In this document: piece after piece, positions 59,050-64,000 of the stretch
Layout of the letters: every line of letters starts with the position of its first letter
How positions within the stretch are numbered: the first letter of the stretch is position 1
Source: Patescibacteria group bacterium
Lineage (GTDB): Bacteria; Patescibacteriota; Minisyncoccia; UBA6257; 2-01-FULL-56-20
Direction: 5' to 3'
DNA length: 64,000 bases
NCBI GenBank assembly: GCA_028865305.1
Contig: JAGWKM010000001.1
Span: 58,762-122,761 of the forward strand
The notes under the pieces: generated by a model
What the model saw: the letters and a program-made list of their open reading frames with translations, nothing else
Database searches by the model: none
What the model was told of the DNA's origin: nothing
Made by a program: the position numbers and the translations under genes

Positions 59050-61251
59050 CTACCACTTCTCTACCATCAACATCTTGCTGGGCTTGAAGATGCCGTAAAT
59101 TTCCTCGGTCACGAATGGCATGAACGGATGGAGCATCTTCAGGGATTCGAGCAGAAGGTGTTCCAAAATCGCAAAGCTCGCTTGTTTTTCTTCCTCGGTG
59201 CCGTTGCGGAGCTTCTCTTTTTCCGCTTCGATGATTTTGTCCGCCAGCGTGTGCCAGATATAGTGATATAGTTTTTCCGCTGCGAGGTGGAATTCGAAAT
59301 TTTCGATATGTTCCGTAATTTTGGTTTTCAAACTATTCAGTTCGTCCAGGTAGGTTTGGAAGTCAGAAGTTGGAAGTTGGAAGTTGGGATTATTCCATTC
59401 TCCATTCTCCATTCTCCATTCTCCTTTGTTCATTTCGATAAACCTTGCGATATTCCAAATCTTCGTCGAAAAATTCCGGTAGCCGCGGATGCGGTCTTCG
59501 GATAATTTGATGTCGTTTCCCGCCGAAGCGCCGATCACGAGCGACAGCCGTGTCGCGTCTGCGCCGTATTTGTCGGCCATTTCAAGCGGGTCGATGCCGT
59601 TGCCGAGCGATTTCGACATTTTGCGCCCTATTTCATCGCGCACGAGACCGTGGAGATATACTTTGCGAAAGGGGACTTCGTCCATTAAAACCGCGGACAT
59701 CAGGATCATCCGCGCGACCCAGAAGAACAGGATGTCGTAGCCGGTTTCGAGCACCGAGTTCGGGAAATACGTTTTTAAGTCGGGCGTTTCATCGGGCCAG
59801 CCGAGCGTCGAAAACGGCCACAGCCCCGAAGAGAACCAGGTATCGAGCGTGTCCGGATCCTGCTCCCATCCGTCTCCTTCCGGCGGTTCAATGCCAACGT
59901 AAAGTTCTTCTCCATTCTCCATTCTCCCTTCTCCGTCCTTCTTTTTCTTATACCAGACGGGAATCCGGTGTCCGAACCAGATCTGCCGCGAGATGCACCA
60001 GTCGCGGAGGTTGTCGATCCAATGGAAATAAATTTTTTCGAACCGCTCCGGAAGGATTTTGATCCGGCCGCTTTCGACCGCCTCGCGCATCAATTCTTTG
60101 AGCGTCCTTGCCTCTTGTCCCTTGCCCCATGTTCCATTAAATTTCTTCTCCACCGCCACGAACCATTGCTTCAAAATCTGCGGTTCGATAACGCCTCCGC
60201 CGCGGCTGTCGGTCGCGATGCGGTGCGTATATTTTTCATCAATTTTTTCAATCAGGCCTTTTGATTGTAGTTTTTCTACGATGAGCGGCCGCGCTTTTTT
60301 GATGTGCTGTCCGGCAAATTCGCCGGCGATTGGCAGCAGCTTGCCTTGCAGATCGATGACCTGTTCCATGTCGAGTTTGTGCCGCAGGGCGATATCGAAG
60401 TCAACCATGTCGTGCCAGGGCGTTATTGTCATCACGCCGGTGCCGAAGGCCATGTCGATGGCCGAATCTTTCAAGATCGTCGCCGTGACCGGGCCGTTGA
60501 TCCATTCGAGTTCTATTTTTTCGCCGTGTTTATATTTTCCATACCGCTTGTCGTCCGGATGCATCACGACGTATTTGTCGCCGAATTTCGTTTCCGGGCG
60601 TGCGGTCGCGATCACGAAGGGGCCGTATTTCAGGTAATAGAGCGGCACGGTTTCTTCGATCCATTCGATTTCGTCGTCCGAAACCGTGGTGCCGAGTTCA
60701 GGATCCCAGTTTACGATGCGGTTGCCGCGGTAGATCAGGCCGCGATCGTACATTTTTTTGAACGCGGTGCGGACGGCGACTTCGCGCGCGGCGTCCAGCG
60801 TGTAGGTCTCGCGGCTCCAGTCGAGCGAAGAGCCCATCCGCTTCACCTGTTTCACGATGGTGTCATGGCTCTTTGCGGCGAATTCATTCACGCGGCGCAA
60901 AAATTCCTCGCGGCCGAGGTCGTGGCGGCGTTTTTTCTCCTCTTTGTAAATCAGTTTTTCCACTTTTGACTGCGTTGCGATCGCGGCGTGGTCCGTGCCG
61001 GGTATCCACAGGGTTTTTTTGCCACGCATCCGTTCGTAGCGCACCATAATGTCTTCAATGACGAGCATCGCCGCGTGGCCCATGTGCAGTTCGCCCGTCA
61101 CGTTCGGCGGGGGAAGCACGATTGAAAACGGTTCCGCATCTTTCGCCGTCACACCTTTTTCGACGCAAACATCAGGGTTGAAAAATCCCGAATCTTCCCA
61201 CTTCTTATAAATCCGCGCCTCAACCTCTTTAATATCATATCTCGGTTCCAT
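59050..61251 (-). CDS. valS: valyl-tRNA synthetase with repeat-derived inserts
   Basis: PPPNVTGELHMGHAAMLVIEDIMVRYERMRG; GRKMSKSLGNGIDPLEM; GTDHAAIATQSKVEK. Confidence 0.95.
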   Translation of the reverse strand: MEPRYDIKEVEARIYKKWEDSGFFNPDVCVEKGVTAKDAEPFSIVLPPPNVTGELHMGHAAMLVIEDIMVRYERMRGKKTLWIPGTDHAAIATQSKVEKLIYKEEKKRRHDLGREEFLRRVNEFAAKSHDTIVKQVKRMGSSLDWSRETYTLDAAREVAVRTAFKKMYDRGLIYRGNRIVNWDPELGTTVSDDEIEWIEETVPLYYLKYGPFVIATARPETKFGDKYVVMHPDDKRYGKYKHGEKIELEWINGPVTATILKDSAIDMAFGTGVMTITPWHDMVDFDIALRHKLDMEQVIDLQGKLLPIAGEFAGQHIKKARPLIVEKLQSKGLIEKIDEKYTHRIATDSRGGGVIEPQILKQWFVAVEKKFNGTWGKGQEARTLKELMREAVESGRIKILPERFEKIYFHWIDNLRDWCISRQIWFGHRIPVWYKKKKDGEGRMENGEELYVGIEPPEGDGWEQDPDTLDTWFSSGLWPFSTLGWPDETPDLKTYFPNSVLETGYDILFFWVARMILMSAVLMDEVPFRKVYLHGLVRDEIGRKMSKSLGNGIDPLEMADKYGADATRLSLVIGASAGNDIKLSEDRIRGYRNFSTKIWNIARFIEMNKGEWRMENGEWNNPNFQLPTSDFQTYLDELNSLKTKITEHIENFEFHLAAEKLYHYIWHTLADKIIEAEKEKLRNGTEEEKQASFAILEHLLLESLKMLHPFMPFVTEEIYGIFKPSKMLMVEKW

Positions 61252-61291
61252 GCCCCTGATTATATTGTAAATTCAGTCATTTCTACAGATA

Positions 61292-61321
61292 TTGACAAAA
61301 TGATATAAGATGGTGTATAAC
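61292..61321 (+). promoter_or_regulatory. Promoter of the DGR target gene
   Basis: TTGACA-18-TATAAC. Confidence 0.65.
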
Positions 61322-61341
61322 TGATAACAGAAATTTAAGGA

Positions 61342-61392
61342 GGGTCATAGCTTTCAGGACGCAGACAACCTGTGTTTTGAAAGCTATAACCC
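61342..61392 (+). promoter_or_regulatory. 5'-leader hairpin of the DGR target gene
   Basis: GGGTCATAGCTTTCAGGACGCAG / CCTGTGTTTTGAAAGCTATAACCC with G-U pairs. Confidence 0.6.
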
Positions 61393-61434
61393 GCTGCAAA
61401 ATGTTCAAAAGTGGAATAGCAGAAAGGAGTTGCC

Positions 61435-62085
61435 ATGAGCAACCCATCATTCGATCAAGCGTACCAACTTCTCTCCGTGACCCGCGAGGCGGGCATCTCG
61501 CTCGAGGGCCTGCAAGCCCTCTATAAAACAGGACTTCTCTCGGATCTTTTGAAAGCCGAAACTCCGGCAAAGGTTGACCGCGAGGCATTCCGCAAGATCC
61601 TCGGCTACGATCGGTCCAGCTTCCTTGTGAAGATGAATGGCACCGAAGATACCGACGCGATCATCGCGGCGCTGAAGGCCGAGGGCGGCTGGAACTACTT
61701 CAATGAGTGGATCAACCAAGAGAACTTTCCGCTCGAAGTCGGCGGGTCCGATGAGACTGACGAGATCGTGATCCACGATCCCGGCACGAGCTTCACTGAA
61801 GAAGGAGGTCTTGCAATTCTGAAGGGCGAAGGCCTGCTTCGCCCGACGTACAAGCACGCGCTCCGGTTCGTCCGCCAGCACGGGAAGGCGACGACTTCTA
61901 CTAAGAAGCCGTTCGTGATTTTCCTTCACAAGCCCTGGCGGGATCCGCGCCGCTTCCCGCGCGTGCTGTGCGTGGTCCGCCGCCCCGGGGACCGCGAGCT
62001 CTACCTGCTTTGCTCCGAGGGCAGGTTCTACGACTATTGCGTGCTGGCCGGCGTCCGGCCGCGCAAGCAGCCCTCGGTCGCTTAG
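61435..62085 (+). CDS. DGR target (variable) protein
   Basis: C-terminal RFPRVLCVVRRPGDRELYLLCSEGRFYDYCVLAGVRPR encoded by the VR; AGGAG SD. Confidence 0.88.
   Translation: MSNPSFDQAYQLLSVTREAGISLEGLQALYKTGLLSDLLKAETPAKVDREAFRKILGYDRSSFLVKMNGTEDTDAIIAALKAEGGWNYFNEWINQENFPLEVGGSDETDEIVIHDPGTSFTEEGGLAILKGEGLLRPTYKHALRFVRQHGKATTSTKKPFVIFLHKPWRDPRRFPRVLCVVRRPGDRELYLLCSEGRFYDYCVLAGVRPRKQPSVA
61936..62066 (+). repeat. DGR variable repeat (VR)
   Basis: 131 nt; differs from TR only where TR has A. Confidence 0.93.
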
Positions 62086-62117
62086 GCCATCAGCTCTTTC
62101 GGACGCTTTGTCCCTTT

Positions 62118-62145
62118 GCCCCGTTCGGTCTTAACCGAACGGGGT
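62118..62145 (+). terminator. Terminator after the target gene
   Basis: CCCCGTTCGGtcttaaCCGAACGGGGTTTCT. Confidence 0.8.
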
Positions 62146-62401
62146 TTCTGTTTGGTAGAATGAAAGTGGTAGTAGACTGCATCATGCTTGTGACTACGGT
62201 TACAAGCGGTCGAAACCGGCATCGCGAAAGTCCGGCCATGGAACCGGGTACGCCTTGTTCCAGAGTGACTTTCGATGTTTTCTTGAAATCGAGGATGCTT
62301 GGTGCGGAAAACTGGAGGATTAGAATTTTCGAGATCCCAAATACGATACAGCCCCAAGAAAAAAATCAAAGGGCAGTGGTGCAGATGGTTTTCCGCACGA
62401 T

Positions 62402-62532
62402 TGGCAGGATCCGAACCGCAACCCGCGCGTGCTGTACGTGAACCGCAACCCCGAGAACCGCAAGCTCAACCTGAATTACTCCGAGAACAGGTTCAACGAC
62501 AATTGCGTGCTGGCCGGCGTCCGGCCGCGCAA
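62402..62532 (+). repeat. DGR template repeat (TR)
   Basis: 131 nt; Asn-codon rich (AAC/AAT); ends with GTGCTGGCCGGCGTCCGGCCGCGCAA identical to VR. Confidence 0.93.
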
Positions 62533-62538
62533 CCCTCT

Positions 62539-62939
62539 TCATTTCTTTTTCGCCGCCCGGAGATCCTCGGGCGGCGAAACCTGTTTGATCCAGCCGCCGA
62601 GCATCCTGCCGATGTCGAACAGTTTTTCTGAAAGTATTATATATTTTCCGTTATCCAAATCCCTAAATTCCCAGAGGATTTGCAGGAAGAATTTCAGAAG
62701 ATCCAATCTCGTTGCGGCTTTTTGGAGGTAGGGTAATTTCTGTTCTTTGGGAAAATAGCTTGCGACGAAAAGAAGTTCGATAAGCTCAATAAACAAACGA
62801 TCAATTTTTTCACCAAGCGTTCGACGGGAACGCTTCGGAATAACCTGCGAAAATTCATGCCAAACCTTGTACGCGGCCACGAGGTGCTGGATGATCGGAA
62901 GCGTGAGGTTGCGGGGGGGGGGGATTCCATGGAATTCAT
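62539..62939 (-). CDS. avd: DGR accessory variability determinant (Avd) four-helix-bundle protein; start frameshifted by an 11-G tract
   Basis: LTLPIIQHLVAAYKVWHEFSQVIPKRSRRTLGEKIDRLFIELIELLFVASYFPKEQKLPYLQKAATRLDLLKFFLQILWEFRDLDNGKYIILSEKLFDIGRMLGGWIKQ. Confidence 0.85.
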
Positions 62940-62944
62940 TTTTT

Positions 62945-63928
62945 ATGAAAAGCCAATTTGCTGGAAATTTTGAATCAGTCGCAAGCGTCGAAAACCTGCT
63001 TGGAGCTTGGCAAGAATTTTTGCCTGGAAAACGGAAAAAGGTGGACGTGCAAGAATTCCAGCTGCACCTGATGGATAATATTTTAGCATTGCATGCGGAT
63101 TTGGTGAACGGCACGTACCGCCATGGCAGTTACCAGCATTTCAAAATATCGGACCCGAAGCCGCGCGATATCCATAAGGCGAGCGTCCGCGACCGACTAT
63201 TGCATCACGCCATTTACCGCCAGCTTTATCCGTTCTTCGACAAAACCTTTATCGCCGATTCCTTTTCCTGCCGGCTTGGCAAGGGCACACATGCGGCGAT
63301 GGATCGGTTCTGCAGGTTCGGATATCAAGTTGGTAAAAACAATACGCGCACCTGCTGGATCCTGAAATGCGACATCCGCAAATTCTTCGCAAGCATCGAC
63401 CATCAAATTCTTTTGGGAATCCTTCGATCATATATTCCCAATGTGAAAATCATGCGCTTACTTCGGGAGATCATTGAAAGTTTCCCTGTCGGTTTGCCGC
63501 TCGGTAATCTTACTTCGCAATTATTCGTGAATATCTATATGAACGAATTCGACCAATTTGCGAAGCACCAATTGAAAGCGAAACAATATGTCCGCTACGC
63601 CGATGACTTTGCTATCCCCTCGAGCAACCGGCAATGGCTCGAGATAATCCTGCCCGAAATCGATGCCTTTCTCCGGAATTCGCTGAAATTGCACCTGCAC
63701 CCCGATAAGGTATCCATCAAAACATTCGCCTCCGGCGAGGATTTCCTCGGCTGGGTCCATTTCCCGGACCACCGCGTTCTGCGGACCAAGACCAAGCGCC
63801 GGATGATGAAAAGGATTATGACGAATCCTAAAGAAGGGACGTTCCAATCGTACCGAGGCCTTTTGAGTCATGGGAGCGCTAAAAAATTGGGAGCATGGAT
63901 TTCTGCATTCGCTGGAATGACGGAATAA
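62945..63928 (+). CDS. DGR-type reverse transcriptase
   Basis: KPRDIHKASVRDRLLHHAIYRQLYP; LKCDIRKFFASIDHQIL; GLPLGNLTSQLFVNIYMNEFDQFAKH; QYVRYADDFAI. Confidence 0.95.
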   Translation: MKSQFAGNFESVASVENLLGAWQEFLPGKRKKVDVQEFQLHLMDNILALHADLVNGTYRHGSYQHFKISDPKPRDIHKASVRDRLLHHAIYRQLYPFFDKTFIADSFSCRLGKGTHAAMDRFCRFGYQVGKNNTRTCWILKCDIRKFFASIDHQILLGILRSYIPNVKIMRLLREIIESFPVGLPLGNLTSQLFVNIYMNEFDQFAKHQLKAKQYVRYADDFAIPSSNRQWLEIILPEIDAFLRNSLKLHLHPDKVSIKTFASGEDFLGWVHFPDHRVLRTKTKRRMMKRIMTNPKEGTFQSYRGLLSHGSAKKLGAWISAFAGMTE

Positions 63929-64000
63929 AATGTCGTGCGCAAATCAAAAATCGACGGCCGCGGCGGGCAAAACTGGCTTTTGAAGAATGTGCAGGCGGTT

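Follow-up and report, generated by a model that had tools for sequence, protein, structure and literature searches.

A diversity-generating retroelement of Patescibacteria that appears to be gated by phase variation of its avd gene

The window, as we call the whole 64,000-nucleotide stretch analysed here, covers the final 64 kb of a contig of 122,761 nt from a member of the Patescibacteria. It carries, in this order, a target gene with a VR at its 3' end, a TR, an avd gene and a reverse transcriptase (RT) gene, all on the + strand except avd, which lies on the − strand. The target (variable protein) gene is an open reading frame of 216 aa at 61435-62085 (+), and upstream of it lies a 23-nt inverted repeat (83%; 61342-61392), possibly a regulatory stem. 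The RT gene (62945-63928, +), recognised from its open reading frame, motifs and profile match, is intact from its ATG at 62945; its product matches RVT_1 with 74 bits and carries the motifs LPLGNLTSQ and YADDF, the former containing the RT signature [ILV]GxxxSQ of diversity-generating retroelements (DGRs). The solved structure closest to this RT by sequence is the entry series 8ub7 (8e-46), which we take to be the RT complex of the Bordetella phage BPP-1 DGR. The avd gene (62539-62939, −; conserved core 62584-62895) was located by profile matches: NF033474 scores 68 bits, below its curated cut-off of 80 bits, and the bAvd family PF22296 scores 41.6, just above its cut-off of 40. The avd and RT genes start back to back, with their start codons 5 nt apart.

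The TR (62402-62532, +) and VR (61936-62066, +) give an ungapped alignment of 131 nt, at exactly the coordinates given by an earlier, sequence-only reading of this DNA, and the homology ends abruptly on both flanks. The count made in that reading, 21 differences all at TR adenines, was reproduced on re-alignment: the mismatches (A>G 11, A>T 7, A>C 3) fall among the 32 TR adenines, 0 of the 99 non-A template positions are changed, and the probability that 21 randomly placed mismatches would all strike adenines is 1.2e-16. Because these adenine-only substitutions are found together with an adjoining RT that has a DGR motif and an avd gene, the locus is, as judged from its sequence, a genuine DGR that has been active; the same three features support the adenine-directed mutagenic retrohoming that had been proposed for it. 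The proposal that the diversified residues correspond to TR Asn codons describes 10 of the 15 target codons altered by the 21 substitutions; the other five are Gln, Tyr (2), Glu and Lys in the TR. A genome-wide search for further VRs had also been suggested, and with the window TR it returned none. Remote VRs in the target relatives of G015 and G003 gave no match to the TR of their own DGR.

Both repeats are followed by sequences that can fold. A perfect 11-bp stem-loop (62119-62144, +; arms 62119-62129 and 62134-62144) lies 52 nt past the VR, and similar stem-loops follow most VRs of the clade. It is possibly the counterpart of the post-VR stem-loop of BPP-1, or a terminator. A 13-bp hairpin (62548-62579, +) lies 15 nt past the TR, in DNA that is also the antisense strand of the avd 3' end. 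Hairpins in this position, 10-20 nt beyond the TR, are conserved: 44 of 49 divergent loci exceed shuffled controls (z>2). The hairpin is probably a structured spacer of the template RNA. If so, the stretch 62548-62579 may serve as template-RNA spacer and avd coding sequence at once. No Rfam family was found within 61200-64000.

No Pfam family was found for the 216-aa target, and its relatives are the targets of other DGRs in the same bacterial group. A search of genome_contigs with the target protein alone as query gave no matches; with the RT alignment as query, the search of genome_contigs succeeded. Structure prediction, which the sequence-only reading had put forward as a way of placing the variable residues on a binding face, was suggestive: the AlphaFold model (mean pLDDT 75) retrieves mostly C-type lectins at the top of a PDB search, at non-significant E-values of 0.23 or worse, and the fold may thus weakly resemble that of C-type lectins. 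A PDB search with the target alignment returned just helical and designed proteins at weak E-values that are not meaningful. Relatives of the target with no RT or Avd within the fetched stretch occur at L034, L035, L036, L037, L038 and L039, and are possible remote targets or stranded copies. At two other loci, a (GA)n tract (L148, 4509-4538; L149, 4473-4490) lies just before the start of a DGR target gene whose product combines an FGE-sulfatase domain with a pilin-like methylation motif at its N-terminus. This target may itself also be phase-variable.

The feature of the locus on which our interpretation centres is a C11 homopolymer on the − strand (62913-62923; G11 on the + strand) directly after the avd start codons. 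Two ATG codons, at 62939 and 62930, share one frame; from the ATG the gene reads T, then C11, and then continues in a frame other than that of the Avd core. A tract of C9 or C12 would bring avd into frame, and C11 does not. The assembled avd is therefore not translatable from ATG 62939 or 62930, and what is read from the avd ATG in the present state is an out-of-frame peptide of 81 aa (62694-62939, −). The tract is the sole G or C run of at least 8 nt in the 64-kb window. Since it follows the start codon immediately and puts avd out of frame, the window DGR looks switched OFF now, although recently active. The earlier reading was right about the repeats, but it missed both the avd gene on the opposite strand and the tract that shifts its frame. 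A GTG at 63114, 219 nt upstream, is in frame with the window avd, and an N-terminally extended Avd may be made from it.

Two further DGRs with the same order, each with adenine-only TR/VR differences, are found in the same assembly. The one on contig C90 (L023) has C10 at the same avd site and is out of frame too; the one on contig C320 (L024) has avd in frame and an RT broken by (GA)14. The whole 2-Mb assembly contains three C tracts of ten or more and one GA tract of eight or more units, and three of these four (two of the three C tracts and the GA tract) lie in its three DGRs, which may come from more than one organism or cell because contamination of the assembly is 8%. Where mismatch repair is lost, simple-sequence tracts slip more. 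As judged by the MutS_V domain, MutS is present in 11 of 14 control genomes, and none was found in 120 other genomes of the order; the lone MutS_V match in the window's assembly (C22:7-570), at the end of a different contig, may be contamination.

The arrangement is not peculiar to this assembly. Our comparison set consisted of the 80 closest RT relatives in genome_contigs, which span many Patescibacteria lineages, and as these are closest relatives the tract frequency describes the clade, not all DGRs. In 75 of the 80, avd and RT are on opposite strands, and a repeat tract is present at the avd start in 72 of the 75, poly-C in 64 and CT, TC, GA, CAGC or ACGA in the rest. Different repeats are thus swapped at one and the same avd site, namely C8-C14, (CT)10-12, (GA)10-19, (CAGC)6 and (ACGA)9. 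Repeat units of 3 or 6 nt, which are unable to shift the frame, were not seen at these DGRs. Of 246 genomes of the order, 105 have Avd matches. The tract matches listed for these 246 genomes include 77 of C10 or longer, of which 31 are located 6-66 nt 5' of an avd core, without exception on the avd sense strand. By comparison, a tract was present in 0 of 68 control loci, which are phage-type DGRs from viral contigs with avd on the same strand as RT and whose gene order, host and RT lineage are not those of the test set; internal RT tracts were also absent from the viral-contig RTs. Three IMG/VR 'viral' contigs (L250, L253 and L260) carry a tract-bearing avd, and are probably Patescibacteria chromosomal DNA or phages of these bacteria.

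Other DGRs of the order carry their tract within RT. Where avd is on the same strand as RT, a (GA)n or poly-G tract lies inside the RT gene in a variable loop (profile position ~125), and one divergent group has an RT tract in another loop (profile position ~175). These internal tracts reach 17-35 GA units. An avd tract and an RT tract were never found together in one DGR. On an RT tree (FastTree, with many weak forks) the repeat classes need 28 changes, and the pattern is one of a large poly-C clade, several replacements by other repeats, and separate RT-gated groups. At one locus (L163, ~3717), a one-base shift in RT before the GLPLGN motif accompanies an in-frame avd, possibly through decay or an assembly error.

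In each of the 96 non-redundant poly-C avds, an ATG lies within 60 nt of the tract and is open into it (37% expected from shuffles). Of these 96 genes, 20 are in frame, 49 are in +1 and 27 in +2, so that roughly 80% of the avd genes with a tract are out of frame; as the lengths are taken from assemblies, in which a tract may be miscounted by one, each single ON or OFF call is uncertain. Both in-frame and out-of-frame lengths occur among relatives whose genes are otherwise intact. Among 38 avds scored as lacking a tract, 36 have an ATG in frame; the other two carry a short (C7) or an interrupted tract. An in-frame ATG or GTG upstream of the core is lacking in 74 of 79 OFF avds, the window being among the five exceptions. 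The excess of +1 over +2 frames (p=0.015, uncorrected for kinship) is not what plain equal slippage predicts, and neither is the OFF state of all 13 (GA)n RT tracts (chance 0.005 if one third were ON); selection for OFF, frameshift leakage or kinship among the loci may contribute to both.

It could be argued that a majority of out-of-frame genes marks dead, decaying DGRs. The evidence points firmly the other way, and this is the least probable of the alternatives we consider. Decay should have brought more stops and drift at non-A positions. The cores of the OFF avds are stop-free over 100 codons in 79 of 79 cases, and dN/dS is low, about 0.06-0.08 in the closest pairs (synonymous sites being near saturation in wider pairs). 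Stop-free cores under purifying selection suggest that the out-of-frame avds are silenced, not dead, and on these grounds we rejected a pseudogene reading of the OFF genes. Moreover, their TR/VR pairs are almost without non-A change. Adenine-only TR/VR substitutions are seen in about 80 related loci, and OFF elements overall have 53-54% of adenines changed against 0.4% of other positions: 456 of 853 adenines and 10 of 2439 non-A positions at avd-gated loci, 188 of 350 and 4 of 1050 at RT-gated loci. Many changes at A with few elsewhere indicate that OFF loci were active not long ago.

The closest view of a change of state is given by two near-identical loci from two assemblies (L080 and L081), which share 3412 identical positions (99.97% over 3.4 kb) and are set apart by a single substitution and a single indel. 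This indel lies inside RT, where one locus has G11 (OFF) and the other G9 (ON); this is the sole such pair, and its tract lies in a sister-clade RT, not in the window avd.

Taken together, we consider it highly probable (about 85%) that the locus is a chromosomal Patescibacteria-type (CPR) DGR in which Avd is gated by phase variation, and which is OFF in the present assembly. An RT-Avd complex would copy the TR RNA with errors at adenines, and the mutated cDNA would replace the VR at the 3' end of the target gene. Translation of avd would have to pass the simple-sequence repeat right after its start codon, where replication slippage would alter tract length and bring avd in or out of frame. 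If Avd is needed for retrohoming, tract slippage would flip the mutator ON and OFF reversibly, at random and in single cells. In the reconstituted BPP-1 system, inactivation of Avd or RT lowers editing to about 1e-9 (PMC12875486), and by analogy the window DGR presumably depends on its Avd. Slippage would presumably also occur within living populations. Sister DGRs would obtain the same gate from other repeats at the avd site, or from repeats inside the RT gene. A good target variant would be protected for as long as the mutator stays OFF, and this protection would be the benefit of keeping the mutator silent most of the time.

Several other accounts of the tract have to be weighed against phase variation. 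Assembly errors in homopolymers, with genes that are truly in frame, come to mind since homopolymer length is a weak point of assemblies and most of the loci derive from metagenome bins. However, whatever their exact length, the tracts are present at one site in assemblies from many independent projects, with different repeat types and few tracts elsewhere, and tract-less avds are in frame in all but two cases; we regard this as very improbable. A role for the G/C tract as a structural or promoter element between back-to-back avd and RT, for example a G-quadruplex or an operator spacing whose effect on the frame is incidental, has in its favour that the near-adjacent start codons also place the tract upstream of RT. 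Against this, CT and tetranucleotide repeats can take its place, an ATG always reads into the tract, and in other clades the gate lies inside the RT coding region, all of which make such a role improbable, if slightly less so than assembly error.

The most serious competitor is that a constant low level of Avd is made from any tract length, through ribosomal frameshifting (e.g. +1 at CCC-C) or RNA polymerase slippage, with no genetic switch at all. Long runs are slippery for polymerases, and the excess of +1 over +2 among poly-C avds is in line with such leakage. Frameshifting at CCC is nevertheless unworkable at ten loci with CT, GA or tetranucleotide repeats at the same site, and an interpretation of the tract as a poly-proline +1 frameshift site was set back by these non-C repeats. 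All three frames occur, RT genes hold as many as 17-35 GA units, and a difference in tract length is the sole indel separating L080 from L081. As a replacement for a genetic switch we therefore find leakage unlikely, though more credible than the other alternatives; in addition to phase variation, it may act by leaking some Avd.

Several of these features have parallels in known systems. The BPP-1 DGR (mtd-avd-TR-brt) shares with the window an adenine-directed TR/VR pair, the 3'-terminal position of the VR in the target gene, a hairpin past each of the two repeats, and a homologous RT; the window Avd weakly matches that of BPP-1 (Bbp7, 4dwl). Unlike in BPP-1, the window avd sits between TR and RT in the reverse orientation, which makes the region after the TR antisense to avd; its start has a repeat tract, the host is a cell and not a phage, and the target is unrelated to Mtd. 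The Patescibacteria/CPR DGR clade 2 (Roux et al., 2021; PMC8144416), of which the window element may be a member, resembles it in host group, the absence of a recognisable target domain and lower-than-average activity. The text of that study does not mention homopolymers, frameshifts, slippage, avd or antisense. Contingency loci of Neisseria, Haemophilus and Campylobacter share mono-, di- and tetranucleotide tracts, their location at the 5' end or in the interior of genes, and frame switching (PMC5084427; PMC11868660). These known loci control mainly surface structures and DNA modification, whereas the switched gene here would be part of a targeted mutator.

Switchable mutators do have a precedent in the 6-bp repeats of mutL, whose number sets the mutation rate. 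Mutation changes genome-wide in mutL repeat mutators, whereas that of the window DGR would be aimed at one protein surface.

We consider it probable, with slightly less confidence than for the locus itself, that in a large part of the Patescibacteria a second random switch gates DGR hypermutation. Slippage of avd or RT repeats in cells without MutS would leave the DGR OFF in most cells, while a minority would sample new target variants before lock-in, resulting in a two-level evolvability system that would have arisen or been rebuilt several times. A reversible repeat switch in the accessory or RT gene would be a simple answer to the question of how fresh variants are protected from a programmed mutator. 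A class of DGRs under the control of simple-sequence phase variation seems to be new, and comparative sequence evidence supports it well; no published report of a phase-variable or tract-gated DGR was found in the open-access literature (subscription papers and preprints being outside the scope). Published surveys describe DGR activity as widespread and seemingly constant, with CPR clade 2 DGRs below average (PMC8144416), and a repeat switch that is mostly OFF would explain the lower activity reported for CPR DGRs. Tract and frame together also provide a sequence mark by which the ON or OFF state of thousands of DGRs could be scored.

Repeats of the same kind were also noticed at further genes. 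In a related genome, (GA)11 interrupts a glycosyltransferase family 10 gene (L150, 2015-2036), which is likely a phase-variable surface gene, and another (GA)11 lies at the 5' end of a gene for a pilin-like glycine-rich protein (L157, 2008-2029).
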